NCBI RefSeq assembly: GCF_026210795.1
Contig: NC_089457.1
Location: 124,001-188,000 of the forward strand
Reading direction: 5' to 3'
DNA length: 64,000 nt
DNA from: Rhizophagus irregularis
Lineage: Eukaryota; Glomeromycota; Glomeromycetes; Glomerales; Glomeraceae
Both the position numbers and the translations under genes were made by a program. The notes under the pieces are model-generated. The model was not told the origin of the DNA and made no database searches. It was given only the letters and a program-made list of their open reading frames with translations. Every line of letters begins with the position of its first letter. Position 1 is the stretch's first letter. Below, piece by piece: positions 3,601 to 55,871 of the stretch.

Positions 3601-3689
3601 TTTGAAATGCAAATATAAATATATCACATCTTATCCTATAAAAAATCGTCAAAGAAGGTACCAAAAGTACTTTGTTAAGTTTTTTTATC

Positions 3690-20880: not shown

Positions 20881-21359
20881 TAATAAAAGTTTATAAGTGC
20901 TTCAGTGGATAAAAATTACAACTTTCACAGTAGCGTTACGGACAAGTCTTTGTTGTTGAAACCGAACTGAATGATCAGTGCACGATCCCAAGTTGGGTGG
21001 AGAAGAATCTACTATTTTATACATACGTGTGTAGCTGGAGTGTGAAATAGCAGTTTTTGGTCTTTCTTCAAAACAAATTCACGTGATCATATAGTTAGTA
21101 ATTGAATCAGCAAATCAAATGAGTTATCCGGGTTGAGTTCATTGCGATATATCATGTGCATTTTTTATTTACAAATGAAAGGAATTAATTGTATTTAAAT
21201 ATGCGTAATAAGTAATAATGAAAAGAAATTCAAGAAATTAATGTTTGTGAATTAATTTTGCGAAATTATTTCCAGAAAAAAGGAAGTTTGTGACTCGTTG
21301 GCTCCCATGCACTAAAAAAAAATAAATAAAAGATTAGTTAAACCATCCGATAAATTTAT

Positions 21360-36373: not shown

Positions 36374-37399
36374 GACTTGTATTCATCAAACACAAATTAT
36401 TTAATAAATGCTTAAATTTTATATTTACTGAATGCTTAATGTTTTATGAATACCTATTTGTATTTAAAATAAGCATTTATAATAGATTACAAATTAAATA
36501 TTAATTATTAAATACTTCATATATAATTGCTACTTTAATAAACTACTTAAAAAAATATTTTAAATTAATACTTATTAATTGCTATGAAAAAAAATATCAA
36601 TTAAGCATTTGAATTTATTATTAAAAAGGCATAGAATATAAGCATTTAGATTTTGTTATTTTTATATTAAGTCTTAAAGAAAAATGTCCCAAATTAGTAT
36701 TACGCGTATCACATGATATAGATAATCTTTTTTTTACAAATTTTTTTTCAACGAAGCTTCACCTTTTTTACCCTTCTATTTTTCCTTTCCTCTCTTTCAC
36801 TTTCCCATTTTTCTTCCCTTTGTTCTCTTTTTTACTCTCTCTATTTCCATTTCCTTTATTCTTTTCCTTTATTCTTTCCTCTTTTTTATCCTTTCCCCTT
36901 CTGTTTAAAAAAAAAAGTTAAAATCAACCACAAAAAAAAATCCAAACTTTTTTAGACTAAGAATATAGGGGTTTTGCAGTGTAATATATGCAAAACTACT
37001 AAAATTAGTTTCATAAAATCATCTTAAAATGCGAAACTGCAAAACTGTCAAACTGTTTTGACATTTCGCTGTAGTATATCATATGATATACATATAGTTC
37101 TAATATTTATAGATCATGATCATATTCAATATATATATATACTATATATATACAATTTCGGTTTATTTGGTTTATTTAAACTAAAAAAATTTTTAGTTCC
37201 AGTATCGGTTATGATTATCGATCTGATCAATTAATAATCTTTTTTATATAGAAATTCTTTAGAAAAAAAAAAATTTACTATCACGTATAAAATGTTAAAA
37301 AGCTAAAAGCTAATTTAATGAAATTGTAAAAAAAAAATATTTTTATAAAACCTTTTATCAAGTAAAATGATAAAAGTTAATTAATTTTTTTCTTTAGAA

Positions 37400-39303
37400 A
37401 TGTTCCTGTTTGGTAAGTTGATTTATTTTTTTTATTATCATTTTTCATTTCTTTGGTTCTAATTTTGTTTTTTTTTTATTAGATTTCGGTTACTTCAATT
37501 TTTATTATTTTATAGAAAACCACTTTGAAACTAATTGCACTGGTTTAACATTTTCTTTACCGGTTAAACTATTTTTTTGTAAATTTCAGTTTTAAGTTCA
37601 AGAAATAAATTTTTTGGACGCAGAATTTTTGTAAAGTGTAAATGGTAAATTTCATAGTGAAACTTATCATTTTTTCCTTTTTTTTTCAATAGAAACGCTA
37701 AATAAGCTATTTTTTTGTAGGTTTTTTTAAAATATCGGGCAGTAATATTGAAGCTTAATAATAGTAAGTTTCATTGTAAAACTTTACTATTTCTTCCTTT
37801 TTCCTGAGCTTGGATTTCGGTAAAGAACTCTATGGTAAATTAAAGGAAGAAATGTGTGAAGCTGAAATTTTTTCTTTTTATTTAAGAATATTTCTAATAA
37901 TGCTAATGTTTGTTTCATTCTTTTCTATAGGAACGCATCTGGACTCAGACTTTAGCTAGAAAACTTTATGAAAGATAAGTTGTAAATTGAAGGGATCGGA
38001 ATTGTATTTTGGGAGCATTACTAACATTTCTTTCTTTTTTCTTTAGGGATAGCTTCATTTAGACTTTTGGTTTCTTTGACACGTGAGTCTTTTAATACAT
38101 TTTTTTTTATTTTTCTTAATTTAGTTATTTTGACGAACTGTTATTAATAGTTCACTTTTTTTTTTTTTTAGTTTTTAGCTTAACTAAAAATAAAATAAAT
38201 TGTGTAAGTTTTGATTTTTTTTACTAATTTTTATTTTAATATTTTTAACAAACTATACTAACAGTTCTATTCTTTTTCTTTTTTAGGCAGATCTTTCAGG
38301 TTTCTGGGATTTAGACGTTAATAGACAGCTTGAACTTTTGAATACTTAAATGCATAGAAATTTGGTAAAAGAGGGGCCATTTTTATTATTCTTTAATGAA
38401 ATATTTACTAATATTTCATCTTCTTTCTCTTTTTAGATGGCTTCTTTTTCAGGGTCTTTAAAGAGTGCGTATTATGGTATTTAAATTTAATTTCTTAACC
38501 TTCTTTAATATAACGAAACATTAACCAAATGATTTTATTTTTTATTCTTTTTTAGGTAGTTTTCAGTTCTTTAAATATGACATTTCAGTAAGTAATTTTT
38601 TCTTTTATTTATTTAATGAAACACTTATTAACGTTTCGTCTTATTTTTTTTTTAGTCAGCTTCTTTGAAATTTCTTTGGCACAGATTCGTAAGTTTTTTT
38701 TTTCAATTTTTTTTCTTTTTTTCTTTTATTTATTTTTGTTTATTAACTTTTGTTTATTACTTCTTTTTTTAGTCAACTTCTTTTAAACTTTCTGAGTACG
38801 AATTTGTAAGTTTTTTTATTTTAATGTATTTCTTTTAATGAACATCATTAATGTTCATTTTCTTCTTTTTTTTAGACGGTTTGCTTTTCAGATCTGGATG
38901 CATTGGATTCAAGTAAGCTATTATTTTTACTTTGTTATTTGTTTTAATGAAATGAATGAAACGTTTTCTAATATTTAGATTTTTATGAATATTAGTAGGA
39001 AAAATCAAAAATAATTTTTTGAATTTATTTCTTTTAGCGAAATGTTCTTACTGACGTTTCAATTCTTTTTTTTTTAAGCGATCAGATTATTGGATGCGTA
39101 GATTTTGATTGGTATTAGAATTTTTCTTTGATTTATTTCTTTTTAACAAAATGCCTTATTAACGCTTTGATTTATTTTTTTTCTAGATGTTCAGATCTTT
39201 GGACGCGTAGAATTTTAGTAAGGAGAATTTTTTTGAATATATTTCTTTTAGTGAAACATTTTTATTAACGTTTTAATTTTTCTTTTTTTAGATGACTTGA
39301 TTA
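37400..39303 (+). repeat. Mini-exon/intron-like tandem array A
   Basis: About 12-14 degenerate units of roughly 90-200 bp. A typical unit has a polypyrimidine run ending TTTTTTTAG, an exon-like piece of about 30-40 nt with words such as CAGATCTTTGGACGCGTAG, a donor-like GTAAG, then a T-rich spacer with a hairpin such as AATGAACAT-catta-ATGTTCATT (38837-38859) or GAAATATT-TACT-AATATTTC (38398-38417) about 20-30 nt before the next AG. The pieces do not join to one clear long reading frame, so I do not call a protein gene. Confidence 0.6.
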
Positions 39304-39534
39304 GGACCCCAGAAACTATATATAAAGATTGTTTTAAAAAACCAAAAATTTTATATGAACTTTACCCAGAATCTTATTGGCTAACTGATCGAAAAAGGAA
39401 AAAATTCATAATAAAATTGGTGTGACATTCCTTTTATATATTTAATTTAACTAAATATAGCAAGATCTTCAAAAAATTTTCCTTATAGCTTTACCCATTT
39501 TAACGGTAACCTATCTATAGAGTTTCTGGAGTCC
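39304..39534. mobile_element. Tc1/mariner-like MITE, 231 bp
   Basis: Ends GGACCCCAGAAACTATATAT and, inverted, GGACTCCAGAAACTCTATAG; flanked by TA on both sides (39302-39303, 39535-39536). Inserted at the 3' edge of array A. A lone related end (TTTCTGGGGTCC) stands near 63340-63352. Confidence 0.8.
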
Positions 39535-40055
39535 TACCTGATCTCTATATATAGTGATGATCTGTGGCTTGTGATAGTTCTGTTCTGCTTTCAGTTTTTT
39601 TATACCGCACTTTCTACTACTACTAAAGAGTGTATGATTTAATTTTGTTTCTTTTTGGCTGTTACTGAATATAATATCCTATTATATATGGAATTTCACA
39701 AATTTCTAATTTAAATAGTAGGAAGGTATGAAAAAGTAAATTAGTCATAATATAAAGATACTATATATTATATGTAAATATGTAATATAATAAAAAAAAT
39801 GTATAAAATATAATAATAAAATAAATATAATAATAAAAATTAATTAAATTATAATGTAATAAAATATCAATACTAAAATGGTGTTTATTATATAATTAAT
39901 TTAAGTATTTTAGTTATATTAATTTCTATTAATCAATTAGCAATAAAAAAATAATGCTTATCAAATACAAGCTGCGTTGAAATTTGTTTAATAAGCACTT
40001 AAATTAAATATTCTTAAAGCATTTAATAAATGATTGGTAAATGCTTGGTTTAACT

Positions 40056-40431
40056 TCGTGATGATTACGATTAAGGTTGCTTGTCTAAACTTCTTCAAAA
40101 TCCTACGATTAGTTTCGTCAAAATTTTACTATAGATTTATTATAGTTTTGGCAGAGTTTCGGCAGTTTCGGCATTTATAATAAGTTTTGGCAGTTTCACT
40201 TTTCTCCAAAGTTTCGCCAGTTTTTTAATATAACTTTAATATAGTTTTGGCAGAATTTCGCTTTTCAGCGAAACGCCATCTTGCCTAAACCCCTAAATTT
40301 CGGCAAGCAACCTTAATTACGATAATAATAAATATTATGATAATGATAAATATTATAATGATTACGAAATATCATATAATTATGAAAAAGAAATATATCT
40401 AACTTTAAGAAGTGGTAATCATCAGTAAATT
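40056..40431 (+). pseudogene. Tail of the split gag gene, with a MITE in it
   Basis: Around the hAT-type MITE at 40072-40315 the frame reads DDYD, then NNKYYDNDKYYNDYEISYNY and EKEIYLTLRSG before TAA at 40429. The D/Y/N-rich stretch and the YLTLRSG ending resemble the gag-pol junction of the Ty3-like elements expected in this lineage. No protease or reverse transcriptase follows. Confidence 0.55.
40072..40315 (+). mobile_element. hAT-type MITE, family H2 (244 bp), copy 2
   Basis: Ends TAAGGTTGCTTG and CAAGCAACCTTA with the identical octamer ATTACGAT on each side (40064-40071, 40316-40323). It has the same length as copies 1 and 3 and is nested in the gag tail. Confidence 0.93.
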
Positions 40432-40433
40432 TT

Positions 40434-40955
40434 TTGGGGTGCGGATCCTTAGGGATTTCAAAAATCCCATAATTAGTAAGGATCCTTCATTAAGGAACCT
40501 TTTCCACCAGCGAGAATTTCCTATTATAAAATTTTTATGGAATCCTCAAGGATCTTAAATTTACCAATAAGGAATCCTTAAGGATATTTGTTTTATATTT
40601 ATTTATTTATATTAACAATAAAATGTATATTTTATTATATTTATTTATTTATTTATTAATAATATATTGCAAATTGCAATTAACAAAAGTAATGAAAACA
40701 AATAACACTATTTATATATAAATTATTATACCATAATATATGAATTATTATAAAATTTACATATGACTTATATTCCTTGAACGATTTGAGGCCATTCATG
40801 TCTAATTCTTTCAAATAATTGTGATTTGATACACTTTAATGCATCAGAACCTTTTGTTGTAACGCCAGATTCAATATCATTAGTCATAATACCCTAAAAT
40901 AAATTGAAAGAATTATGGTTAAAAATTATAAAAATTAAATGAAGTAAAAAAAAAA
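40434..40955. other. Spacer with inverted GGATCCTTA words and a short coding-like scrap
   Basis: 40440-40600 has many copies of AAGGATCCTTA/AGGAATCCTT in both orientations. On the minus strand 40893-40777 reads IMTNDIESGVTTKGSDALK then SQLFERIRHEWPQIVQGI and a stop, possibly the last exon of an unknown gene or transposon protein; no upstream part was identified. Confidence 0.35.
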
Positions 40956-40959
40956 AGAA

Positions 40960-41485
40960 AGACTTTAATTACCGTTATTATAAAGACTAAAGAAAAAGCA
41001 AATGAGAACACAGATTAAGAGGTTATCTTAGAACGCTTATAGAACCATATTATAACATAGTTCTGAAAATCTCTGTTTTTAATATTTAAAACTGAACTTA
41101 TGAAGTTGAATTAACAGATGTTAGTAAATGTCTTTTTAAAAGAAAAATAAAAAACCTTTTACTCCTCTAAATACATACCTGACTCCATATCCAAAGTCCA
41201 GAATCAGCGTCTATGAGAAAGAAGCAAAGGAATGTTAGTAAACATTCTTGAATAAAGGGAGACAAAAAAGTCTTTGGCCAAATATTTACTTAGTTCTATA
41301 TTCAAAATCAAAAAGGCAGGAATCTACAAAAGAACATTAGTAAATGTTCTTAAAAGGTAAGTTTATTCACTTTTTACACCTTTGAGCAATACCTCAATAT
41401 AAGATCCAAGAGATCCATTTCAATTATAGAAAAAAAACAAAAAGAAACAACCTAAAAAAAGAGTGAACGTTAGTAACGTTCTATA
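40960..41485 (-). repeat. Mini-exon/intron-like tandem array C
   Basis: Same design as array A on the opposite strand. In minus-strand reading: hairpin GAATGTT-TACT-AACATTC (41230-41247), AGAACATT-TACT-AATGTTCT (41331-41350) and GAACGT-TACTA-ACGTTC (41465-41481), each followed by a pyrimidine-rich run and AG. Exon-like pieces include GATTCTGGACTTTGGATATG with a GTATG donor. Confidence 0.65.
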
Positions 41486-41492
41486 CAAAAAT

Positions 41493-41736
41493 TAAGGTTG
41501 CTTGTCTATACCTCTTCAAAATCCTACAATTAGTTTCGTCAAAATTTTACTATAGATTTATTATAGTTTCGGCAGAGTTTTGGCAGTTTCGGCATTTATA
41601 ATAAGTTTCAGCAGTTTCGCCATTTTCCAAAGTTTCGCCAGTTTTTTAATATAACTTTAATATAGTTTCGGCAGAATTTCGCTTTTCGGCGAAACGCCAT
41701 CTTGCCTAAACCTCTAGGTTTCGGCAAGCAACCTTA
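41493..41736 (+). mobile_element. hAT-type MITE, family H2 (244 bp), copy 3
   Basis: Ends TAAGGTTGCTTG and CAAGCAACCTTA with the identical octamer ACAAAAAT on each side (41485-41492, 41737-41744). Inserted at the edge of array C, next to the composite element's left arm. Confidence 0.93.
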
Positions 41737-42197
41737 ACAAAAATCCTTGCCAGTATGTATATATCTGTGTCGTCAGGCTGGTAGTGTGTCTCGCTACGCT
41801 CACCCACCTCGGCCTCATGACTTCGCAGTACTTACATCCCCCTCCGTAGGGCAGAAAATCCCTATATATCTGAAACAATATGAAACAAGATCTGAAACAT
41901 AATAATATAAGCAAAAAAGGATAAAATAAGGGAAAAGAGAGGAAAATAAGAGAGAATCAGAGAGGTGTTTCGATGTTTCAGATGTTTTGGCAATTTTGGT
42001 AAAAGTCAGGCGAGGACAACCCCCCCAGAAAAAGTTTTGATTTTACCCCCCAGATCCGAAACTTCTGAAACATCTGATGAAACAGATTCAGGATTCCATT
42101 CATTTTCTTATTGGAGGCAGTGAGATAGCAAACCAAGTGAACAGGTAGGTTAATAGCCCCTAGAAGGACTGTCGAGTCACAAAAGGATAGCCGGGTA

Positions 42198-42329
42198 TAA
42201 AGATGTTAGCCTTAATTATTTTTTAAAAAATTTTGAATTACGGCTATAAGATTTTTATAGCCTTAATTAATTACGGCATATAAAAATTTTGTATTACGAC
42301 ACTTTTTTGAATTACGGCTAACATCTTTA
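42198..42329. mobile_element. hAT-type MITE, family H1 (132 bp), copy b
   Basis: Ends TAAAGATGTTAGCC and GGCTAACATCTTTA, with the octamer GCCGGGTA repeated on both sides. The right arm of the composite element has the uninterrupted site (near 46015-46035), which proves the duplication. Confidence 0.95.
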
Positions 42330-42403
42330 GCCGGGTAGGAGCGCGGATCTTTGGAAAAAATATATTCGGCAATTGAAGATTAGGTAACTATAAGTAACAT
42401 ACA

Positions 42404-42739
42404 ATGATGAACTTACACGCAGCCACTTCTCTTGCCAAAGACCTCGGACTTGATCTTGTAGACATCTATGGAATCCGTAAATAGATCCAAATGCGGGCAT
42501 TACCCTTCAACGATCCCGATATAGTAAGAGAGATGGTCAGAAACCTTCCGATCAAAGAATTCAGAAAACATCTCAAGATAAACAGACTCTGGTACAACGG
42601 TTGTAAAGCCGAGTTGTGGAAGAGGCATAAAGAAGCCGAGGAGGTATACAGCAGAGCGGCAGATAAGTACAGGGAAGCTGATAATCCTGCAGAGTCATAT
42701 TTTTTGTCCAGATTTTTACAAGGATTGATGACTATGTAA
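42404..42739 (+). pseudogene. Arm gene, left copy, with TAG stop
   Basis: Reads MMNLHAATSLAKDLGLDLVD then IYGIRK-stop-IQMRALP and on to ESYFLSRFLQGLMTM and TAA. The TAG at 42481-42483 stands where the right-arm copy (45345-45680) has TGG (Trp). The rest is open. An in-frame ATG lies 3' of the stop at 42491, so a shortened product is possible. Charged and Ala/Arg/Glu-rich, probably helical; no family recognised. Confidence 0.6.
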
Positions 42740-42782
42740 CCATATCATCAGGTATCCTTACATTTTTCAACAAGGATTGATG

Positions 42783-43421
42783 GTGATAAGGGGGTGACAG
42801 GTTGGGTACCGCAGTTTTTGTAGTATGCCGATCATGGTGGTCACATGTTGGACTATCATTGGATTGACTTATCTAGGTAGATCTTAGGTTAAAGGATCGT
42901 TCGCAATGAGGTGGGTGTCCTTTGTTTGAGATCGTTCGCAATGAGGTGGGTGTCCCTTAGGGGATTGCACGACACTAAAAAGTTCCCCATCGGCTGGACT
43001 GCACGACACTAAAAAGTTCTCTGAGGTCTTTGTGAAATAGGTTTGTTATCCATAGTATGTAGTCAAATAGGGGAAATTGAATTTTAGGTATTTCTGATAG
43101 TGCTAATGGTAGCTCGGAGGTTCTTTACCGATTCTAGGAGTGGGTACGGCGCTGGATGGGTTACGTATAGCATAGTCGACTTTACTCATTTTGAAATATA
43201 TTTGGGGGGAGTAGCCGTAGTTATTTATATAGAGAGGGTGGGGTTTTTAATCTTAGCTTTTCTTACATATTTGTAATTTCGGAAGATTATTTGTTCTTTG
43301 TTTTTCTATTAGTTCTGCACTTGTTGCGGTACTTTATAGATACATTTTGTCTTTCCCTGCAAGTTTAAAGCATTTCGGCATTAATTAATAAAATTCAAGC
43401 CTCAAATGCTTTATGTTTATC
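42783..43421. mobile_element. 639-bp insertion with 16-bp target duplication, LINE-like
   Basis: TCAACAAGGATTGATG occurs at 42767-42782 and again at 43422-43437, while the right arm has it once. Long variable duplications without inverted ends fit target-primed retroposition. The insert has two copies of GATCGTTCGCAATGAGGTGG (about 42898 and 42932) and two of GCACGACACTAAAAAGTTC, is richer in G than its surroundings, and ends without a poly-A tract. No reverse transcriptase is present, so it would be a 5'-truncated or non-autonomous copy. Confidence 0.65.
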
Positions 43422-43521
43422 TCAACAAGGATTGATGACCACGTAATCTTCATCATTAGGCATTCATGAATTCTTAACATAAACTAATAAATTTTTAAAT
43501 GTTCTCTAATAATTTCTAATA

Positions 43522-44300
43522 TGTATTAGATGGAATAGCATCCATTTGTTCATCTGGCCATTTGTACAATAATGTTCAGGATTCCATCCATTTGATTTGT
43601 ACAACAATGTTCAGGATTCCATCTATCCATCCATTTATACGTTAAAAATATAGCATTAGATGGAATGGCATCTATTTGTTCATCTGGCTATTTGTATAAT
43701 AATGTTCAGGATTCCATCCATTTGATTTGTACAACAATGTTCAGGATTCCATCCATCCATCCATTTATTAGTCCGGAGCGTAGCGAAGGACTCTATATGT
43801 TCTAGCCGTGGTGGTATAAAATATCCCGTTGTCCGTCCGCTTGTTCTTTGAGTCGACGTTTAATTGGTTCTTATATTACACGAAATTATCTCGATCAGTT
43901 AATTGAGCATGTGATTATCTACCTATATACTGATAAGCTCCAGACTACGTAACGGTTTACCGTTTCCCTAGTACATTAAAAATATAGCATTAGATGGAAT
44001 GGCATCCATTTGTTCATCTGGCCATTTGTACAATAATGTTCAGGATTCCATCCATTTGATTTGTACAACAATGTTCAGGATTCCATCCATCCATCCATTT
44101 ATACGTTAAAAATATAGCATTAGATGGAATGGCATCCATTTGTTCATCTGACCATTTGTACAACAATGTTCAAGATTCCATCCATCCATCCATTTATACG
44201 TTAAAAATATAGCATTAGATGGAATGGCATCCATTTGTTCATCTGGCCATTTATACAATAATGTTCAGGATTCCATCTATCCATCCATTTGTCCATTTGA
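43522..44300. repeat. Tandem array of about 95-145-bp units with ATCCATCC words
   Basis: Five units start with TAGCATTAGATGGAATGGCA near 43522, 43650, 43985, 44115 and 44211. Each continues with CATCCATTTGTTCATCTGGC and one or two copies of CAATGTTCAGGATTCCATCC. The unit between the second and third is split by an insertion. Confidence 0.85.
43769..43974. mobile_element. About 206-bp insertion in the tandem array, type unknown
   Basis: Breaks the array unit between CCATTTAT and the expected (AC)GTTAAAAATATAG. It begins TAGTCCGGAGCGTAGCGAAG and ends TTCCCTAGTAC. TAGCCGTGGTGG is vaguely like a Pol III A box, but no convincing B box follows. No inverted ends. Confidence 0.5.
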
Positions 44301-44337
44301 ACATACACATCAGAAATGAACACTTTACCTTTACTGA

Positions 44338-45276
44338 GTGGTTATAATATTATTCACCATGATGCCTCCATGTCCTAAATGTGGAAAAAATAATTTTAAA
44401 AGTACTCGAGATAGAAACACTCATCTGAATCACAGAATTCCATGTATACCTAAAATTACTGAAGTAATTAGCTATCCAGAAACTATTCCAGAACCTTCAG
44501 AAGTTGGAAATAACCTTCCAAACAATCTAAAGTATGGTGGTATATCATCTGTAGAAGAGCTTAAAGCAACTATAGATGAACTTGCTTCACAAATGTGAGC
44601 AATTTCTTGGCAATTAAAAAATACATCAATGGATATTAAGGGAGTGTCAGGTGATATAACAGATTTATCAAATTAGCAGGAAGCAGCACAAAGTAAAATA
44701 CAGGATCTTGAGGAAACAATGTCTCAACATACTGCTTCAACTAAAAATTCTGTTCGAAACCTTCAAGAAACATTATCTCAACATACTGCTTCAACTAAAA
44801 AATCTGTTCGAGATCTTGAGGAGACAATATCTCAATATACTGCTTTATCTAGTAAATCAAGTATTCATAGTATTCCACTTTCAACTGCTAGTTCTAAAAC
44901 TTCACAATTTACATATGATCCTACAATAGCAGATTTAGAACAGACTGAAGAGGATAAAGAAATGGCTAGATTATATATGAATCAACTTTTATTACTATTG
45001 AGATCATGTCCACTTGATATTGAGGAATTTAAAGAAGGAAATAATATGTTACAATGGCTTTTTGCTAATAATATAATAAGAGATGATAAATCATTTTGCT
45101 GGCTTTCTGCATTATTATATAGTCCAAAGCCAACAAGAATTTCTTTAGGGAATCCTGGTAAAGAGGATTAACTTAATTTGCTATCTCATCAGTTCAAACT
45201 AGTGATTAGACAAAATTTTGAAAGAGTACTAGATAGAACATTTAAAAATTTATTAGTTTATGTTAAGAATTTATGA
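44338..45276 (+). pseudogene. Zinc-finger/coiled-coil ORF, interrupted by in-frame stops
   Basis: One frame carries the whole thing. It opens at MMPPCPKCGKNNFKSTRD with HLNHRIPC (C-x2-C and H-x3-H), then TGA at 44596-44598, TAG at 44674-44676, then three near-repeats of DLEETMSQHTASTKNSVR (heptad-like, probably coiled coil), a conserved-looking segment DPTIADLEQTEEDKEMARLY with MNQLLLLLRSCPLD, TAA at 45169-45171, and further readable sequence to a TGA near 45276. It lies in the core of the composite element between the arms. Possibly a recognition protein of that element, which is inference only; no transposase motif is visible. Confidence 0.5.
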
Positions 45277-45344
45277 ATGCCTAATGATGAAGTTACATGG
45301 TCATCAATCTTTGTTGAAAAATGTAAGGATACCTGATGATATGG

Positions 45345-45680
45345 TTACATAGTCATCAATCCTTGTAAAAATCTGGACAAAAAATATGACTCTGCAGGAT
45401 TATCAGCTTCCCTGTACTTATCTGCCGCTCTGCTGTATACCTCCTCGGCTTCTTTATGCTGCTTCCACAACTCGGCTTTACAACCGTTGTACCAGAGTCT
45501 GTTTATCTTGAGATGTTTTCCGAATTCTTTGATCGAAAGGTTTCTGACCATCTCTCTTACTATATCAGGATCGTTGAGGGGTAATGCCCGCATTTGGATC
45601 CATTTACGGATTCCATAGATGTCTACAAGATCAAGTGTGAGGTCTTCAGCAAGAGAAGTGACTGCGTGTAAGTTCATCAT
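45345..45680 (-). CDS. Arm gene, right copy, intact 111-residue ORF
   Basis: Starts MMNLHAVTSLAEDLTLDLVD, continues GIRKWIQMRALPLNDPDIVR and ends ESYFLSRFLQGLMTM. It has no stop inside and keeps the Trp lost in the left copy. The protein is rich in Arg, Glu, Ala and Leu, with no signal peptide or membrane segment. Function unknown. Its presence in both inverted arms means that it travels with the composite element. Confidence 0.55.
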   Translation of the reverse strand: MMNLHAVTSLAEDLTLDLVDIYGIRKWIQMRALPLNDPDIVREMVRNLSIKEFGKHLKINRLWYNGCKAELWKQHKEAEEVYSRAADKYREADNPAESYFLSRFLQGLMTM

Positions 45681-45697
45681 TGTATGTTACTTATAGT

Positions 45698-45961
45698 CAG
45701 TGTTGTACATGGGACATGTCCCGCCAAAATTTTAATGTCCCAGACATTGTCCCGTCCATGTCCCGTTCACGTCCCGTCCAAAAATTGTTCAAGTTTACAA
45801 TTTGTCTTATCAAGACAGCACCTAATGGGCTATAATTTATAATTAAGATCACGTGATTTTAATGTTCCAATGTCCCGGACATTGCTAAAATCTTTGGACG
45901 TGTCCTGGACTGTCCCGTCCCGTCCTGTCCATAGACATGTCCCGTCCCTATGACAACACTG
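45698..45961. mobile_element. hAT-type MITE with CAGTGTTG ends, 264 bp
   Basis: Ends CAGTGTTGTACATGGGACAT and, inverted, CAGTGTTGTCATAGGGACG. The octamer CTTATAGT flanks both sides (45690-45697, 45962-45969), and the left arm has the empty site (near 42385-42400). CAGTGTTG is close to the canonical hAT end. The interior is built of many (A)TGTCCCG words. Confidence 0.95.
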
Positions 45962-46489
45962 CTTATAGTTACCTAATCTTCAATTGCCGAATATATTTTT
46001 TCCAAAGATCCGCGCTCCTACCTGGCTATCCTTTTGTAACTCGACAGTCTTTCTAGGGGCTATTAACCTACCTGTTTACTCGGTTTGCTATCTCACTGCC
46101 TCCAATAAGAAAACGAACGGAATCCTGAATCTGTTTCAGATGTTTCAGAAGTTTCGGATCTGGGGGGTAAAATCAAAACTTTTTCTGGGGGGTTGTCCTC
46201 GCCTGGCTTTTACCAAAATTGCCAAAACATCTGAAACATCGAAACACCTCTCTGATTCTCTTTTATTTTCCTCTCTTTTCCCTTATTTTATCCTTTTTTG
46301 CTTATATTATTATGTTTCAGATCTTGTTTCATATTGTTTCAGATATATAGGGATTCCCCGCCCCACGGAGGGGGGGATGTAAGTACTGCAAGGCCGTGAG
46401 GCCGAGGTGGGGATGAGCGTAGTGAGACATACTACCAGCCCAACGACTCTGTCTTTGTTTCAATGAAAATTCAAAGTTAATATCTACAA

Positions 46490-47540
46490 AAAAGGAAAAT
46501 GAACATTACTAACAATTTTATATTAAAATGTAAATAAAACTCTAGAAAAGGTATATTAATTCATTTCATTACCAATTTCACTTTTTATTTTTTGTTTTCA
46601 TTTAATTTTATTTTTTTATTATTTAAGTTTCGGCTGCCTGGATTTAGACTTTGGTAATGGCTTATAGAGTTATGATAAGTCTTTCTAGTTTAAATTTATT
46701 TCGCTATTTTTTATATTTTTTTTATTATTTATTAACTAATTTTTTTTGTTATTTAGAGTTTATTTATTGGTTTGAATGGTAATTATGAGTTTTAAAATCT
46801 AAAAAGCCAAAAGGGTATTATAGCAAACGAAAAGTGTTATTACTTTATCAGAGTATATGAAATGAAAGCATCGGTATTGTAGATAGTTATCCAAAAAAAA
46901 AGATTGGCAATCAGATCTTTTAAAAAAAAGGGATAATTTTTTTTCCGAAATTTGTAACGGATAAATATTACACTTATGATTTAGGTTTTTTTTTTAAGAT
47001 CAAAAAAATTTTTTTTGGTTTTTATGATAAACCAAGTTTTATTCTATATATTTGATAATTTATTTAGTCTCATTTTTATAAAATTTCATATAAATTACTT
47101 TTTCCTTCAATAAATAGTTAAGAAGTTGTAATAATGTGAAGTCTTCAGTAAAGAACCAATTTTATATAGTTTTTTTTAAAGAAATAGTCAGTCATACTAA
47201 ATTATTAACTACTTATTATTTTATAGGAATGGAACATAGGCTATTGGACACTAAGATTGCTGGAGAAACTAGGGGGTTTTGGCAAGTTGGCGAAATACCA
47301 AAATAGCAAAACTTTGCCAAAACTATATGAAAGTCTTATTAAAAAGTTGGCGAAACTCTGGAGAAAAGCGAAACCTGACGAAACTTATTATAAATGCCGA
47401 AACTGCTGAAACTTTGCTGAAACTATAATAAAATTATAGTAAAATCTTAGAGAAACTAATCGTAGAATTTTGGAGAGGTTTAGACAAGCAACCTTATTGG
47501 ACACCTAGCTTTGAATATGGAATTATGGAAGGTATAATGG
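46490..47540 (+). repeat. Mini-exon/intron-like array D, degraded, with a MITE in it
   Basis: Plus-strand units include TTATTTAAG then TTTCGGCTGCCTGGATTTAG and ACTTTG before GTAATGG (about 46625-46665), and a last exon-like piece ATTTTATAG then GAATGGAACATAGGCTATTG, split by the MITE at 47252 and continuing to TTTGAATATGGAATTATGG before a GTATAATGG donor. At 46490-46520 there is one unit in minus orientation (AATGTTCATTTTCC then TTTTTTGTAG), perhaps the continuation of array C across the composite element. Confidence 0.5.
47252..47496 (-). mobile_element. hAT-type MITE, family H2 (245 bp), copy 4
   Basis: Inverted relative to the other three copies. Ends TAAGATTGCTGG and, at the right, ACAAGCAACCTTA. 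The identical octamer TTGGACAC lies on both sides (47244-47251, 47497-47504). It is more diverged internally than copies 1-3, so probably older. Confidence 0.9.
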
Positions 47541-47598
47541 TTGGAATTAAAAGTAAGGGAGTGCAGTAATTTTTTATAGAAAAAATACTAATTAGGAC

Positions 47599-48790
47599 AT
47601 GAACACAGTTTTAGGACTTGTAAACTTTGGATTTAAGATGGATCCACATCTCAAAAAAATTACTGATGATAGATATGGAGAAGATTTAATTGATGAAATG
47701 GAAATTAAAGATGTTTCAATACCACCAAAAAGAGAATATGATATGAAAATGGATATTGATGGTGAAAGAAGAGGAGGATTTTCTACTAAAGAAGAATGAG
47801 ATAAAACATATCAATTAAGAAGACAATATAATCAATGTGAAAGATGTGGATTAAAAGGTCATTTTATAAAAGAATGTCCAAATTCAGGAATGAAAAGAGG
47901 AAACAAAAATATTAGAGTAAGAGTTAATATACCACCAGAAAAATATGTAATGGATATGTTTAATGAAAAAGCAAATATAACATATGGGCAAATTTATAAT
48001 GAAAATCCAAAATTTAGAAAAATAACTAGAGATTATAATGGATATAGTAATGTATAACTACACTCAAACCAACCAATAAAAAGTGTAGATAATAAAAGTG
48101 AAACGGAAGGAATGAGAAGTGAAGTTATAATAAAAGGAAAATTAGTATCAATAATAATAGATTCAGGAGCATCAGTTAGCTTAATATCAGATAAATTAAG
48201 AAAAGAATTAAATATTCCAATAATAGAAAAGAGTGATATTAGATTTATAATGGCTAACGGAACAAGAATTGCATCAAAAGGAAAAATAGAAATAATAATA
48301 GAAATAAATGAAAATACAGAAATAATAATAATTATGGATGTAATTGAATCAGTAGAAAAAGAATTAATATTAGGAAATGATGTATTAAAGAAAAGAAAAG
48401 GATAATAGATTATAATGAAAAAGTATTAATATTAAAAGAAAATGAAGAAGAAATTGAAATACCAGTAGAATATGAAAAAGTACTAAGAGAAAATGGAAAA
48501 GAAACTGAAATACCAATAGAATATGAAAATAATAATGAAAATATTAATGATGATAATAATAGTGATGATAATGAAAATGAATATGAAGAAATAAGTGAAC
48601 GAGAAATGTATTTAATAAATAATGAAGAAAAAGGACATATTATAGAGGAAAACTATTAGGTCTTGGCTATAATAATAGAGAGATATTAAAGATGTATAAA
48701 GAATGGACAAATGAAATAAAATATAAAGATTTAAAGAAATTACAAGAAAAACAATTAAAAGATTTGGTTAAAAAATATGAAGATATTCAT
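47599..48790 (+). pseudogene. Ty3-like gag/protease remnant
   Basis: One frame from 47599 to 48405 with in-frame TGA (47797-47799) and TAA (48055-48057). It contains an intact CCHC zinc knuckle CERCGLKGHFIKEC (47836-47877) and an aspartic protease active site SIIIDSGASVSLISDKL (Asp codon 48160-48162), with ELILGNDVL downstream as the second conserved block of retropepsins. After a frame change at about 48400 an acidic linker follows (ENEEEIEIPVEYEKV), then GKLLGLGYNNREILKMY up to about 48790 in a third frame. No reverse transcriptase or integrase is found, so the element is truncated. Whether it is the 3' continuation of the gag at 33.4-40.4 kb or a second element cannot be decided. Confidence 0.75.
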
Positions 48791-49056
48791 CAGGAAATTA
48801 AGTGCACGTGAAATAGTGCATTGTTTTATGTCAGCACAGATCAGCGTAAAATCACATGATTCTGTGAAGGCAACACAGAACAGTGCGTTAAATCAGCCTG
48901 TAACATTGCACAAAAAATTGCTACGAACAGTGCGATATTTTATTATTTTTATTTACTGCTTTACATAATAATATTATATTATTACATTATATCATAACAA
49001 CTCAAATTATCTAAATAATAATATTATGCCAGTTTTACCACATTTTCCAAATTTTA

Positions 49057-50946
49057 TTATTCGGCTTCTTGCAAAATTTCATTTTCGTCTAATTCACTAT
49101 TATATTCACTATTAATTTCATTATTGTTATTTTTTTTATTAAGCTAAAATTTAAAATGTTTGATTAAAATAAGGAAAAAAATAAATATATAAAACAAAAT
49201 ACAAATTAATTTAATACTTTACATACCCATTTTTCTATAATAGAATCAGTATCCCATTTATCCATCCATTCTTGTACTTTTGATGATGATATTTCAACCT
49301 GATCATATGATGGATCTAATAACATCCATGCAACTGTAATACCGAATTTAATGTTATTTTCATTTTGCAACTCTTCTTTCATAAACACTTTTCGCAAAAT
49401 ATCTTCAATAAGTGAAGGAGAATTTGGTTCATTATCTATTTTATTCCACAAATTAGATTTTGCTTGTTTAACTTGTTCTGATTCTTTCCAAGATCTGACT
49501 TCCGTGGGACTGGCAAACTTGTTAAGTTTGTGAGAAATTAAGTTGAAAGTAGCGTAAACTGCATCTTTTATCTTGCGTACGTAAGAGCTCCTATAATTAC
49601 GAAAATATTCCAATGTCTATAATATAGGTATTAAAAATTGTAAATTGAATTTAGTTTTTATACATTAAAATTTTGATAAAATTTTTTACAATTGAATATC
49701 CAGCATTCCAGAAATTATCCCATCCACTTGAATCTACAATTTCTTGTAATTTTTTGGGATAATCAGTTTGAATTTTTGATTTGAAAACACGTTCAATATC
49801 TGCATCTGACGGATTTTTATTTTCTTGAAACAATTGATGACAAGCTTCTGTCATTGGAACCTAAAAGAAATATTATAAAATAGTTATATTTATATCTAAC
49901 TAAGATAAAAATTTTATATTATTACCTACATCCCATCACAAATGTTTTGTATCCTTTCTTTTCAAACGTTGCTTTACTTTTCCCTCCAGTTGATGTACTT
50001 GATTATTAGTAGTTAATGATGGTTCTTTTGTTAAAACTGCAAGCATGTTTTGTAGGAGTTTATGATTTTCATAAATATCACTTTTTAACTCTGCATATTT
50101 TTCCTGCAAAGTTTCAATTGTCATATGTTGCTTCAGCTGCTTTTCGAGGATTTTTTCAAGAATAGAATGAGTATTTGCATCAAGTTTAACACCTAAATTA
50201 AAAAAAATAAATATAAAATTATAATTTGACATAATATTTATCAAAAATAACTGCTTACATTTAGATGGTAAATTACTAAGTTCATGCAATTTTTTACGCT
50301 TAAGCTGTGCATCTTTAATTGTAAATACAGTTTAGATAATCAAAATGATACTATATATAGAAAAAATTTTTGTAACACTCACTTATCCTTTCGGTTAGAT
50401 GAGATGTTGATAAATCAGGTGTATCAGATTCACTGTTTATCGATTCTCTTTGATTTTCGCTAAATATTAATAAATTTCATTATTAGATATAATTTTAATG
50501 TTATAAACTCCTTACAAAATGCATATACCTTTTATTAGTATTATTAATCATAGAATCGTTCAAATCATTACTATCAGATACAATAGTTACAACCGGAAAA
50601 TCTTGAGAAGTAGCTTGATGTTCAATATGTTCTTTTGATAATGATATGTCTTGCGATATGGAAACTCGAGAATTTTTTTGTTTTTTATTTTCTTTCAAAT
50701 TATTCCTTCTTTTTTTTCTGTTTTGTACTTCATCAGTTTTACTTAATTTAACCTATAAAATTCACGTAATAAGGTATATATAATATACATTAATGTTAGA
50801 AATATCATAAAAAATATTAAATAATTTACTATAGTTGTTTTCTCATGAGAAGTTTTATTAGTTTTGAGTAATTCTCTAAGGGATATGGCAGATTCACTAT
50901 CTGTAGTAGTATTACAGTTTTTTCTCCTTCCTCGTCTTGATGACAT
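49057..50946 (-). pseudogene. Eight-exon gene of unknown function with one TGA
   Basis: Exons 50946-50830, 50752-50529, 50459-50383, 50312-50259, 50192-49930, 49860-49690, 49616-49227 and 49143-49057 join in phase to 461 codons including the stop, all with GT-AG borders. It starts MSSRRGRRKNCNTTTDSESA. The N-terminal 140 residues are polar and basic, the middle is helical (KILEKQLKQHMTIETLQEKY, AELKSDIYENHKLLQNML), and the C-terminus has SGWDNFWNAGYSI and KFGITVAWMLLDPSYDQVEI. TGA at 49938-49936, eight bases before the exon 5 donor, is the only defect. It is transcribed divergently from the Plavaka-like transposase 250 bp away, so it may be the second gene of that element. Confidence 0.6.
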
Positions 50947-51199
50947 TGTATTTAAAAAAAAGAAAAATGTTTGATCTTCTAAGATATGAAGATTATAATA
51001 TTATGATGTGATTTGATCAATTGATCGTAATGCTAATATCATGATGTAATCCAACAAATTAATAATTTCAAAATCACAAGACTTAATTAATATATAATTA
51101 ATTGAAGTTACCTAGGTAGATAAAATTTTTTGTATTTTTTGTATATGATTTAATGATAAAAATCTATTGTATATTAAACAACAAAATTTTTTGTACAGA

Positions 51200-52713
51200 A
51201 TGTTTAACTGTCCATATCAGAATTGTAAAAGAACCTTTTCACGCCATGCTGCTCTTCGTGAACATATAAAATCTCATAAAGGTCAGGCCTATTGGGAAAT
51301 ATTAAACAGTGTTTCAGAAGATTCTTGTATAGAAAAAGTAGAGTGTTCCAGAGAATTTGTGATAACGGTAATTATAACAATGTGTACTTAAATTTTATAC
51401 TTTTAATTAATATTGTATAACCTTTTATATACTTTTTATAAAGGATAATGTAGATGAACGTGAATACAATGTAGATAACGATCATAATGTAGATGATGAT
51501 AACAATGCCATTATGGAAATTGTAAATGAAGATGTTGTCAATGAAAATATTGCTGATGAAAGTGTTGTAGACAGAAGTGTCATAGATGAAAACATTATGG
51601 ATAGAGGTATTATGGATGAAAGTGATAGTGATACTGATTTTGAAACATCTGAAACCATCATCGATATTGAGGAAGAGCCAGTTTATGATCATATTCATAA
51701 CTACACTTTATATACTCCTAAACAAACTGATAAAATATCCTTAATTGATACAAGGTCTATTTCAAGTCGTAATATACCACAATTTCCTGATGCTGCATAT
51801 TCTGAATTTATGGAGCTCATATCAACACATCACTTATCTAATTTAGCTGAAAATGATATATTGAAATGGTTTTGCAAACACCATCTCTGAGACGATATTA
51901 TTTTACCAACAAATACAGCACAAGGTCACGAATTTGTTAGTTCTATGGATATTAAACATTTATTATATCTCAAAACAAAAATATTAAAATATGAAGATGA
52001 AGAATATTTTCTTTATCATCGACCTATTTTTGAAGCTATCAAAGAACTATTATCTAATATCGATATCATAAATCATTGCCAATGGAATTGTTCACCGGAT
52101 TATATTACCAATGAAAATGGACATCGTGAGTGTGTATATGGAGAGCAATGGTCTGGAATGTAGTGGGAAAATGCTCAAAAATCAATTGGGACAGGATTAA
52201 AAAAGGTTTTATCTATAATATTATATTCCGATGCAACTACATTAGACCATTTTGGCAAAAGTTCAGAACATCCTGTTTATTTATCATTAGGTAATATACC
52301 TAATTGGCGTAGAAACAAACAGGATGCTAAAGTCTTATTAGGAATTTTGCCTAAGCTGAAACCACTTCATAATCGTAAAGAAAATAAATCAGAATTTGCA
52401 TCTGCTAAAAGGATGTTATATCAATATTGTTTTGATATTATGACTAAACCAATATATGAATGTGATGGATTAGATATTAAAACAGACAATCAAATAATTT
52501 GGGCATTTTCTTTTCTATCAGAATTTATAGGTGATCTGCCTGAAGATGCATCATTAACGTTAACTTACAGCTCATCTCGGAGTAGTCATCCTTGTCATAT
52601 TTGTACTGTAACAATTGATGAATTAAATAATATTAATTTATCGCAATCTCAAATAGAACTAAGAACTCCCAATAATATGCAAGTTGTAATAAATAACAAC
52701 CTTTGTCATGAAC
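51200..52713 (+). pseudogene. Plavaka-like (CMC) transposase, 5' half
   Basis: Exon 1 (51200-51367) encodes a C2H2 finger, MFNCPYQNCKRTFSRHAALR with EHIKSH, as at the N-terminus of many Plavaka-type transposases. Exon 2 from 51444 has acidic six-residue repeats (VVDRSVIDENIMDRG), then FPDAAYSEFMELISTHHLSN, ILYSDATTLDHFGKSSEHPV, YLSLGNIPNWRR and KVLLGILP, and SSRSSHPCHICTVTIDEL. The SD-T-L and VLLGILP blocks are what I use to place it in that family. Defects: TGA at 51888-51890 and TAG at 52161-52163, with the same frame open on both sides. It ends at NNNLCHEHW where a 3.3-kb block of repeats is inserted; the 3' half resumes at 56066. The start at 51200 is chosen because an AG acceptor-like CAG sits just before it and the finger follows directly. 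Confidence 0.65.
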
Positions 52714-52986
52714 ACTGGTCAGAATAATCCATTTCGTCCAAATTTCAAATTGACGAATGTTGGACGAATGTTGGTCTAAGTTTGGCTGATCATTGCCAAA
52801 AAAATCGTCAAAATTAAAATGGACGATTTGCACAGTTCGCCTGCCACTTGGCAATCACAAATCGGCAAAAATTTGTTATTATCGGCAAAAGATCGGAAAT
52901 AAAACTATTCGTCAAACTTCTATTGGTCAAAATAGTCCATTTCGTCTAAATTCAAATTGCCGAATATTGGACGAAATGGAGTCTAA
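52714..52986. repeat. Direct repeat pair, each copy a palindrome
   Basis: About 63 bp at 52714-52779 recur at 52923-52986 (TGGTCA-AATA-TCCATTTC then AATTG-CGAAT-TTGGACGAA). Each copy is itself inverted around the CAAATTG core. They bound a 143-bp centre with GCCAAAAAAATCGTC and TCGGCAAAA words. This is the left edge of the block that splits the Plavaka-like gene. Confidence 0.65.
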
Positions 52987-53229
52987 TTTTACCTAATTAT
53001 TAATGATTTTTATATACTGTATTTAGCTTATTTTTAATTTTATAATAACAATCAATTATATTTTGTTATTTCGTTTTATCAAAAATTACATATTAAAAAA
53101 TTACATATTAAACATCTAATATCTACAGTATCTATCTATTTACACCAACCATCTATCATCTACCATCTATTGTTTACCATCCACTCATCCAAACAATCTT
53201 AAAATTATCTACAAATAAAAAAAACGATT

Positions 53230-54760
53230 AATTAAGTTTCTTCAATAAAAAAAACAAATTAAAGTTTTGATATTCGAAAGCTCACCTGGAATTCCATCCA
53301 TGTTGTAAGCCGGAGTCCTTACAAAATTAAAAAAATAAAAGAACCTAAAAAAAAAAAAAAGAAAAATGAAACATTAATGATTGTTTCGTTAAAATGACTG
53401 ATTTAAAGAAGAAAATTTTCTTACCGAATTCCATATCCAAATACTTCAAAGAATCGGCCATCTACAAAAAAAAAAAAGAAATAAGATATTAAAATATTTT
53501 ATTAAAAGGTATTAGTTATTTTATTTCAAAGAAAAAACCCCTTACCGAATTTTTTACATGTCCAAAGATCCAAAGAACCGGTTACCTAAAAAACAAGTAA
53601 AATATGAGTAAATGTTTCAGTAAAGATTAATTCAAAGAAGAACCCTTATATAAATACTTCTTTGCTGAATATATACGTTTCTAAAGATCTAAAGTGTCAG
53701 CCCTTAGCCCTCTAAAAAAAAAAAATCCGTCCTACAAATGAGAAGAAATCCAATCTAAAACCGAAAGAAATAGTATCTGCAATCCAAAACCGAAAAAGAA
53801 AATTCATGGAGCCGTTCTACACAAAAGAAGCTGAAAGAGAAATCCAGAAAATCTGGGAGGCCAAAAAAGAAATCTAAGGAGCTGATCTACAAAAGAAAAG
53901 AAAGTAAATCTAGGAAGACGACCTACAAAAAAAAAATAAAATAAAATTAAAAATAAAAATAAAATTAACAATTAAAATAAAAAAAATATATATTTTTGAC
54001 CTGTCATGCACCAAAATGTAGAATGAATGGGCTTTGGCTGGCTAAAAATAGGATCCTCTACATCACATACTTTTAGAGAAGGAACGATACTCCAACCCTC
54101 TCCACAAAAGCTGAAGCTTATGCTATATTTGCGGCTTTACTGACTATTCCACATCCTCACAGGTTACAATATACATGGACTCAGCAAATTGCATCCACAC
54201 GTGGAAGATCTGAAGATAGCTGTCTAAAAAATCTATAAACCCGTCTAAAAAAAAGAAAAAAACGAACCGTTAGAAACTGTTCATTAATTGTTTTAAAAAA
54301 AAGTTTTGAAGTTTTAACTTCAAAACTTACCCATATATCCAAAGCCTAAGAACCGAAAGCCGAAATCTACAAAACAGAAGAAAAAAAATTAAAAAAAATT
54401 TTTAAAAAAAATAATTTATTTTAAAAAAGTTTTGAAGATTTTACTCCGAAACTCACCTGTATCCAATGCCCAAGAACCAAAGGCCGAACTTACAAAATAG
54501 AAAAAAAAAATTTTTAAAAAAAATTAAAAAAAAATAATTTTTTAAAAAAAAGTTTCGAAGATTTTACTCCGAAACTCACCCGTATATTCAACACCCAAGA
54601 ACCGAAGGCCAAACCTACAAAAAAAAAAAAAATTTTTTAAGAAAAGTTTCGAAGTTTTAACTTCGAAACTCACCTATATATCCAACATCCAAGAACTGAA
54701 ACCGAAACCTACAAAATAAAAAAAATATAAATAAAAAAAAATTTATCCTATCAACGCCAA
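53230..54760 (-). repeat. Mini-exon/intron-like tandem array B
   Basis: About ten or more units on the minus strand. Acceptors such as TTTTTTTGTAG precede exon-like pieces ATGGCCGATTCTTTGAAG with TATTTGGATATGGAATTCG (about 53424-53462), GTTCTTTGGATCTTTGGAC (about 53560-53580), and GGTTCTTAGGCTTTGGATAT with GTAAG. The four units at 54290-54720 are close copies of one another and carry the extra palindrome GTTTTGAAGTTAAAACTTC just after the donor. It splits the Plavaka-like gene. Confidence 0.65.
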
Positions 54761-55871
54761 ATAGAAGAATAAGGGCGAAAGAAAGGAAAAGAACGAAAGG
54801 AGAAAGGGTGAAGGAGCCTCATTAAAAAACAAGCTTTTTTTTAACTTGATCTGGATAATCTCGTTAAAGATTATGCCACAAATAGGTAATTGTGACGCAA
54901 TTCCGCAAATAATCTGTAATTGTGGATAAATTACGGAATTGCAAAAAAAATACTTTTTTACATACTGTAAATAACATAACTTTAAACTTGATTATTATTT
55001 TCTTATCATTAAAGTAAAAGAAAAAATCATTTTTCATTAATAAATTTAAAAAAAGAACGATTTTTTTTTTAAAAAAAATGGATCGGCCGGTCAATTTGAC
55101 GGTTATTGATGATTCGATTTTTTAATATTCATTCAGTCATAAACCGGATAATTCAACAGATATTGGATATTATCTGGCTGAAACACCTTTTTTTGGTGTT
55201 TTTTTTATTTAAAAATGATATATATATTAAATATTAAATCGCTATATTAATTAAATTAAAAAAGAAAAAAAATATAAAATAAGGCAATTCGGCCAGATAT
55301 AATTTGACGGATATTGGATAATCTGTCAAATTATCCGGCCAAATTTAGATTCTTTATTTGCAAAAATGCATTTTTTTACCAATTCAAATGCATTTTTTTG
55401 AAAAATATGATAGAAACACATTTTTCTGTTAGTAAAATGTGTTTTTTATAATAATGCCACATTTGCAGACTAATTGCGGAATTGTGCAATTGATTGTCAA
55501 AATCTGCAATATTATTGATATTAATTAAAAAATTTGGTTAAAAATCGTCAAGTCGATCATCATTGTTAATAAAAAATCGATAAAAAAAAGTATTGGTCGA
55601 TTTATGGTTTTTTTTTATGTTACAACTCAACCAAAAATCGACCAAAAATTGACCAGTTGATTTATGCCGAATTTTTTCCAATTTTTATAATTAGCCGAAT
55701 GTGTGACGAATCACGTGATGACAATGACGAACTTTTGACGAAAGGTATTAATGCCGAAAGAAATGATTTCGACCAGTGGAATATTCTATTCATCCAATGC
55801 GAAATATCTTTTGGAAGTTCTCGTAAGAATATTTTATAAAAATTACTTTATCCAATATTTAACTTTAGAAA
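54761..55871. other. Repeat-rich insert, no convincing gene
   Basis: Contains inverted GCAATTCCGCAAAT and ATTACGGAATTGC words (54898-54945, again 55465-55480) and inverted GGATATTGGATAATCTG/AATTATCCGGCC words (55150-55345). An open frame at 55657-55839 (CDESRDDNDELLTKGINAER) could be a scrap of a mobile-element protein but has no recognisable family. Confidence 0.4.

Follow-up and report, generated by a model that had tools for sequence, protein, structure and literature searches.

Transposon-borne arrays of short intron-like units in Rhizophagus irregularis and the hairpins at their splice words

The DNA analyzed here is a 64-kb window of the genome of the fungus Rhizophagus irregularis (contig NC_089457.1, positions 124,001 to 188,000), in which a preliminary description made from the letters alone had recognized at least four arrays of exon-like pieces separated by intron-like spacers, many of which form a hairpin around the branch-point word TACTAAC. 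The four arrays were confirmed by eye at 37.4-39.3 (+), 41.0-41.5 (-), 46.5-47.3 (+, weak) and 53.2-54.7 (-) kb. Spacers of arrays 1, 2 and 4 contain a GT, a branch-like word, a pyrimidine tract and an AG, array 3 being poor in this respect, and branch-like words in the four arrays number 20 on the sense strand versus one on the antisense strand. Arrays 1 and 4 lie within two transposons with terminal inverted repeats (TIRs), here called elements A and B. The features of the window are as follows (scores are those of a covariance model described below).

36350 to 40063, forward strand: element A, a 3.7 kb non-autonomous TIR transposon with Plavaka-type ends (CATNACGAAGTT) that carries array 1; boundaries common to four copies
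36350 to 36361, forward strand: left TIR of element A, CATTACGAAGTT, from copy comparison
37120 to 37160, forward strand: TATA-like stretch upstream of array 1, a putative promoter judged from sequence only
37400 to 39290, forward strand: array 1, exon-like pieces and GT...AG intron-like spacers, read by eye; splice signals conserved between locus L016 and the window copy (L015)
38129 to 38173, forward strand: branch hairpin GAACTGTT(ATT)AATAGTTC and pyrimidine tract, 33.9 bits
38392 to 38437, forward strand: branch hairpin ATGAAATATT(TACT)AATATTTCAT, pyrimidine tract and AG, 48.9 bits, a training row
38612 to 38657, forward strand: imperfect branch hairpin, 35.2 bits
38833 to 38877, forward strand: branch hairpin AATGAACAT(CATTA)ATGTTCATT, 28.4 bits
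39033 to 39294, forward strand: three branch hairpins, at 39033, 39142 and 39249, with 33.4, 28.8 and 33.3 bits
40052 to 40063, reverse strand: right TIR of element A, CATCACGAAGTT, from copy comparison
41000 to 41490, reverse strand: array 2, half of a locus with two divergent parts; match on C30 at 87%, with 153 of 201 query bases
41209 to 41254, reverse strand: branch hairpin GAATGTT(TACT)AACATTC of array 2, 41.5 bits, a training row
41311 to 41356, reverse strand: branch hairpin AAGAACATT(TACT)AATGTTCTT of array 2, 33.5 bits, a training row
41446 to 41488, reverse strand: branch hairpin GAACGTT(ACT)AACGTTC of array 2, weak in the model at 17.4 bits
46500 to 47260, forward strand: array 3, degenerate, the other half of the divergent locus, recognized visually in L002 next to the match of array 2; without a model match at E < 0.01
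52710 to 52712 and 55779 to 55781: target-site duplication GAA of element B, from copy comparison
52713 to 55778, reverse strand: element B, a 3.1 kb non-autonomous CACTA-like TIR transposon with ends CACTGGTC that carries array 4, from copy comparison
53190 to 54740, reverse strand: array 4, exon-like pieces of about 35 nt and intron-like spacers, the 3' half resembling family-A units
53348 to 53393, reverse strand: branch hairpin in the 3' half of array 4, 26.9 bits
54244 to 54288, reverse strand: branch hairpin of array 4, 36.9 bits
54644 to 54673, reverse strand: donor hairpin GTGAGTTTCGAAGTTAAAACTTCGAAACTT directly 3' of an exon-like piece of array 4, read in the sequence

Dispersed DNA transposons, belonging to two or more TIR families, carry the arrays as cargo, and their ends are found on transposase-bearing copies too. 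In searches of the 32-contig, 146.7-Mb assembly, each end of element A had 18 matches, the window's own counted, and three other copies share 96-97% identity among themselves and approximately 80% with the window copy. A 2-bp target-site duplication is present in three copies (AT, TC and AT) and in L061 (AA), with a mismatched GA/AT flanking the window copy. L061 is a 7.0 kb copy bounded by element-A TIRs that encodes a Plavaka transposase (PF18759, E 3.9e-19, 69.5 bits against a cut-off of 26.3). The TIRs of CACTA transposons begin with CACTA, and those of element B read CACT and then G; its 3-bp duplications were GAA, ATG, TTA and TAA in four of the five copies read, the C2 copy showing none. 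The two end queries of element B gave 51 and 40 matches genome-wide (window included, some copies matched twice), which, from a reading of the match lists, pair as copies of about 3-4 kb, several overlapping array matches, and as copies of at least 7.4 kb. The 7.4 kb copies L059 and L060 share with the window element only the outer ~270 and ~210 bases. A protein of L060 has a sub-threshold match to Transposase_21 (E 8.5e-6, 25.5 bits, cut-off 28.6), and the frame of L059 tested for protein families had no match. Neither element in the window contains an ATG frame of 100 aa or more. Used as DNA queries, array 4 matched at least 169 stretches of the genome (40 of 277 candidates scored) and array 1 at least 90 (40 of 182 scored), the query included and several stretches per locus in both cases.

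The cargo is shared between the two TIR families, since family-B units that match L033 at 77% over 142 bases are present at 2700-2888 of the A-ended copy L061, and array 4 has A-like units in its 3' half (77% over 97 bases to the family-A locus L020, E 1e-14 with the low-complexity filter off). It is these whole-unit matches that link A and B; a profile of 43 family-B exons did not find the family-A exons (best E 3.6). Arrays 2 and 3 seem to form a single locus with two divergent halves: in L002 the halves that match them are about 550 bp apart, as judged by eye, and in the window some 5 kb of other DNA lies between them. Among the explanations put forward in the preliminary description, a mobile multi-intron non-coding RNA fits these observations best, in view of the TIRs, the target-site duplications, the dispersed and transposase-bearing copies with identical ends, and the 12 joined family-A exons, which have no long frame.

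Comparison of the copies also revealed several rearrangements. A 61-base segment of element A (37535-37595) is inverted in the window copy relative to the three other copies (93% identity, opposite strand), and L016 carries at 3525-3939 a highly palindromic nested insertion of approximately 415 bases, the matching place in the window copy, L017 and L018 being without it. The locus resembling arrays 2 and 3 on C30 is split by an insertion (L002:840-1370) with ends CACAGGTC and the duplication GAA, which belongs to another CACTA-like family. Pyrimidine-rich rows at 36850-36900 lie further upstream of array 1 than the TATA-like stretch.

The evidence that most strongly suggests that splicing matters to these elements is the conservation of their signals, which extends to putative donors and acceptors in the two families and to candidate branch words in family A. 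The family-A reference was L016, in which 18 acceptors and 14 donors were marked by eye, after the window copy had also been read, and 11 branch words were marked by script. Across six relatives, the acceptor AG was kept in 54 of 61 cases versus 100 of 180 for other AGs (p 1e-6), the donor GT in 46/55 versus 142/232 (p 9e-4) and the branch TAA in 41/45 versus 122/181 (p 7e-4). Against the window copy alone, 17 of 18 acceptors, 13 of 14 donors and 11 of 11 branch words were intact, versus 41/63, 47/83 and 39/54 for the same words elsewhere. For family B, L027 was compared with six relatives (the 96%-identical L033 left out), and in these non-independent counts acceptors were kept in 92/99 versus 173/310 and donors in 75/84 versus 357/534. 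It seems to be splicing, and not a product, that is kept. In family-B arrays, including L027 and L033, the exon end and donor often alternate between GG/GTAAG and AG/GTGAG (uncounted), as if the bases at -2 and +3 trade strength toward U1.

The hairpins around the branch word are present as originally claimed. A covariance model of the branch hairpin, built from 24 windows (alignment A1), found 14 sites with E < 0.01 across the 64 kb. Nine of them fall in array 1, two in array 2 and two in array 4, and these 13 are all on the sense strand; three were training rows and others have relatives in the training set. Array 3 had no match at that threshold. The same rows modelled without structure gave 13 sites below that E value, of which the arrays hold 12; as a sequence-only model finds nearly the same sites, structure is unnecessary for detection. 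The sole covariance-model match outside the arrays (21308-21353, reverse strand) is an intron-like 3' end that reads TTTAACTAATC and has a T-rich tract. Of 117 branch-like words on the sense strand of nine relative loci, 33 were in a stem scoring 6 or more; for L036-L060 together with the non-array part of the window the figure was 9 of 227 (Fisher 3e-10). Within the window arrays alone stem extension was not significant (20 sense words and one antisense, Mann-Whitney p 0.30).

Perfect stems, defined as those of at least 7 pairs with at least two G-C, differed greatly in density between copies. Their numbers per kb were 5.5 in L027 (0.38 in shuffles), 3.9 in L034 (0.13), 3.2 in L020 (0.32) and 4.0 in array 2 (two stems; 0.10 in shuffles), with 0.5 in array 1, 0.6 in array 4, 0.5 in L016, 0.5-0.7 in the rest of the window, and 2.9 and 3.0 in the parts of elements A and B, respectively, that lie 5' of the arrays. 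The dyads are also not confined to branch words, donors and exons too being palindromic in copies other than those of the window: in L027 the exons are palindromic and hairpins lie at both donors and branch words, and units of L034 (reverse complement) read AAAGAATTCGTA-AG-TACGAATTCTTT at the donor and GAACGGTTA(ATAC)TAACCGTTC at the branch. The idea that stems are perfect when young was rejected given the 0.5 perfect stems per kb of the L016 array. At 55396-55448 (reverse strand), in element B upstream of its array, a long hairpin holds TACTAAC in its loop and no acceptor was seen to follow, so that such a dyad also exists outside any evident intron.

We favor, at a probability of roughly 0.45, the reading that each array is a transposon-borne non-coding splicing unit of many short, strong introns and that the hairpins are a by-product. 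The cargo would be a non-coding transcription unit, kept because repeated co-transcriptional splicing would benefit the element. Stalled splicing feeds RNA interference (RNAi) in Cryptococcus. The most likely benefit would be that transcript and chromatin escape treatment as silencing targets, the DNA staying open to a partner transposase; introns as a barrier to nuclear RNAi are a subject of PMC5554785, as far as the parts consulted indicate. The hairpins, in turn, may be palindromes seeded on the self-complementary splice words GTTACTAAC and GTAAGTAC, where local template switching or repair copying at quasi-palindromes would turn the flanks into perfect stems; unit duplication would then spread the stems, which would subsequently drift. 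Template switching can both create and repair the stems of RNA hairpins (PMC8794818, in the portions seen). If selection for splicing holds the centre and little holds the stem, stems would differ between units, being near perfect in L020, L027 and L034 and broken in the window and L016, and seeding with copying would also explain why stem sequences vary, why palindromes lie at donors and within exons as well, and why dyad centres are shifted.

The chief alternative, which we consider unlikely while far from negligible, is selection on RNA structure, in which the stem exposes the branch word (and donor) in a loop for SF1/U2 (and U1), or masks it for regulation, and compensatory changes keep the stems. 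Covariation between units speaks for it. In alignment A1 the covariation score was 0.444, while shuffles gave 0.181 (0/500) and slid controls ranged over 0.045-0.186; the first figure is one that, like those from models R1 and R2, is inflated by row selection: A1 holds 24 of 36 windows, the 36 had already been restricted to windows with at least 3 of 6 pairs or an upstream GAA, and 12 were dropped by hand for second words in one place, other registers or poor pairing. An unselected count of 69 windows (both strands of L001-L035, overlapping loci included, identical windows counted once) still had 275 Watson-Crick cells versus a permuted mean of 166 and maximum of 201; other registers gave 142 versus a mean of 127 (R2, 51 windows), 47 versus 49 (R3, nine windows) and 25 versus 19 (R4, five windows). 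The covariation includes swaps of C-G and G-C, and so extends beyond CpG decay alone. Pooled comparisons of seven arrays, paralogous and reciprocal ones included, had 87 two-sided changes versus 27.5 expected, 67 of them pair-restoring, at a rate of 5.2% in stems versus 1.25% in mispaired controls. For donors, automatic alignment and RNAalifold of 158 distinct segments was gappy and gave no structure, and an anchored count, for which 88 distinct arm pairs (127 units) were retained from 218 rows, had 242 Watson-Crick cells versus a permuted mean of 215 and a maximum of 240 among 1000 (GU 42, AC 31), with variation in donor stems mostly C/T and G/A at CpG.

Comparison of one array with another tells against selection on structure. 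In nine ordered contrasts (390 pair comparisons, reciprocals included) there were 11 pair-restoring double changes versus 5.6 two-sided changes expected, and from L015 to L016 two versus 1.6. Covariation is thus strong between units, and the excess of compensatory change between arrays is small. The predicted stems of family A are not conserved: for L016 versus six relatives, stem pairs outside the branch word were unchanged in 147 of 203 cases and other dinucleotides in 3124 of 4470 (p 0.48), whereas acceptor and branch signals were intact in 69 of 74 cases and stems still paired in 155 of 203 (p 0.001). With L020 as the reference the result agreed (signals 93/102 versus paired stems 232/302, p 0.001). 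Family B is less clear, its stems being more conserved than other dinucleotides with L027 as the reference. Stem losses showed no preference for G-U (64 GU versus 77 AC; pooled, and not independent, 83 versus 124), and the position of the dyad centre with respect to the branch word varies. Of the two processes that the preliminary description had offered, selection on structure is accordingly unsupported in family A and retains some support in family B, and a copying mechanism acting on structure was the better half of the guess.

That the arrays are a decayed or living micro-exon gene family captured by transposons, whose 33-36 nt exons encoded a repeat protein with variable splicing, we regard as improbable; a coding past is possible, a coding present unlikely. 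Family-B exon lengths do favor multiples of three (44 of 96, with 28 and 24 in the other classes), and in five of ten partly parsed family-B arrays, a parse that left out exons and in which C10/C17 and C12/C27 are related pairs, the joined exons are open throughout in one frame, as in C10 (101 aa from 304 nt, shuffle fraction 0.017, partial parse). In the fuller 22-exon set of C10 and C17, however, every frame has stops, as do all frames of the 12 joined L016 exons. Exons also diverge faster than introns. Identity over the 12 family-A exons is 0.835 versus 0.884 in introns (0.826 versus 0.85 excluding CpG-type sites and T), and a young family-B pair differs at 30 of 738 exon positions versus 32 of 1712 intron positions. 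The decayed repeat-exon gene family suggested earlier is conceivable for family B. The SP7 effector family of R. irregularis was considered and rejected, having, in the source material available, one conserved intron before the first repeat and not micro-exon arrays.

It is very unlikely that the arrays are a splicing-factor sponge, in which many high-affinity UACUAAC sites titrate SF1/BBP as proposed for the long non-coding RNA (lncRNA) Gomafu (PMC3116199, seen in part). Strong branch words are indeed in tandem here, and TACTAA is absent from the 3' ends of all 23 ordinary introns parsed, but donors and acceptors, which a sponge does not need, are conserved too. The ordinary introns were parsed by a simple script from 25 gaps in Ras-family genes; 12 of the 23 had a loose branch word, four of those 12 with a stem score of 6 or more. 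With so few usable introns this control is small and not clean, and L038, one of its loci, itself holds a unit-like match. Chance, meaning AT-rich tandem repeats that happen to hold GT, AG and TACTAA, would agree with the low-complexity T-rich sequence and the non-significant stem extension in the window arrays, and is extremely improbable given the conservation of the signals above the same words elsewhere, the strand bias of the branch words and the location of the model matches in the arrays.

A number of points weigh against the favored reading of a splicing unit with by-product hairpins. The poorest rows of the family-A comparison are L019 (acceptors 4/8) and L025 (donors 5/9). In family B, four of 22 L027 donors are other than GT, only 23 of 49 branch TAAs are kept (reference L027), and the units are tandem paralogues, so that the signal counts are not independent. 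With L015 as the family-A reference there was no clear difference between signals (44/51) and stems (124/163; p 0.17). Family-B stems, L027 versus four relatives, were unchanged in 251 of 329 cases versus 3869 of 6059 for other dinucleotides; 252 of 329 were still paired, which leaves almost no compensation. In the 69 unselected windows A-C cells numbered 35 versus a permuted 45.2 (sd 4.6) and G-U cells 46 versus 47.9, a slight sign of RNA pairing, and since most changes are probably decay in dead copies, the symmetry of G-U and A-C losses is no proof against RNA selection in active copies. The L016 array is 96-97% identical to two other copies and has few perfect stems, hence age alone is insufficient to account for stem quality. 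All three frames are open for more than 100 codons in the 5' half of C17 (L033). Finally, we infer the splicing of the arrays, and any benefit or function, from sequence, and the template-switch origin is a proposal.

A broader form of the favored reading, which we hold only tentatively and think somewhat doubtful, is that these are intron-array transposons: unrelated TIR families would exchange a cargo selected for splicing itself, with no conserved product, and would escape silencing by presenting as host-like transcription, while splice words nucleate and renew hairpins at branch points and donors. Both the CACTA/CMC and Plavaka superfamilies are reported in R. irregularis (PMC11075540, in the parts examined). 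The window elements resemble them in their TIRs, the 3-bp duplication of element B and the ends in common with longer transposase-bearing copies, and differ in their cargo, an array of many introns in which no gene was identified; the main text of PMC11075540 does not use the terms intron, exon or non-autonomous. Full-text searches on hairpin introns, loop branch points, micro-exons in transposons and intron-bearing transposons of R. irregularis, covering few subscription papers, showed no such design among the matches listed.

Several known systems share parts of this design. Fungal introner-like elements and the Hypoxylon sister stwintrons, as described in the accessible portions of PMC8469720 and PMC9024468, have introns in repeated copies that are internally symmetric or contain inverted repeats and for which hairpins are predicted; this symmetry degenerates in divergent copies. 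They sit in many host genes, whereas here the units are in tandem in transposons, with a small hairpin on the branch word or donor. Intron-like units with inverted repeats, predicted to fold, were found here as well (dense perfect stems in L027, L034 and L020, but 0.5 per kb in L016 and array 1), and as for host-gene introns, the relatives looked at are transposon arrays, with one unit-like match ~1.4 kb from a Ras-family match (L038). The lncRNA Gomafu/MIAT likewise has repeated yeast-type branch words in a presumed non-coding transcript, but its repeats are exonic, whereas those here are intronic with conserved donors and acceptors (PMC3116199). Schistosoma MEG micro-exon genes have many short exons, with introns of up to 5 kb according to the sections of PMC10526429 seen; here introns are short, the arrays are inside transposons and no frame is kept, 52 of 96 family-B exons not being multiples of three. 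Hairpins made by template switching (PMC8794818, likewise seen in part) share perfect stems and double changes without stepwise selection; what is proposed to differ here is the seeding by splice words.

The neighborhood contains further mobile DNA. An open frame with a Retrotrans_gag match (E 8.2e-9) lies at 35413-35976 (forward strand), just 5' of element A, and another, at 61653-62660 (reverse strand), matches DDE_Tnp_4 (E 2.1e-41). Beside or close to the arrays there are also copies of a MITE-like repeat of ~240 bases with ends AAGGTTGCTTG...CAAGCAACCTT, at about 40072-40315 and 41493-41736, as well as an end of one at 47485.

The hairpins caution that repeat units may covary strongly without selection on RNA structure. 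If the arrays are spliced, they would be natural transcripts in which the act of splicing, and not its product, appears to be selected, carried on the mobile DNA of a transposon-rich fungus, and the shielding of transposons by introns from RNA-based silencing would become directly testable.

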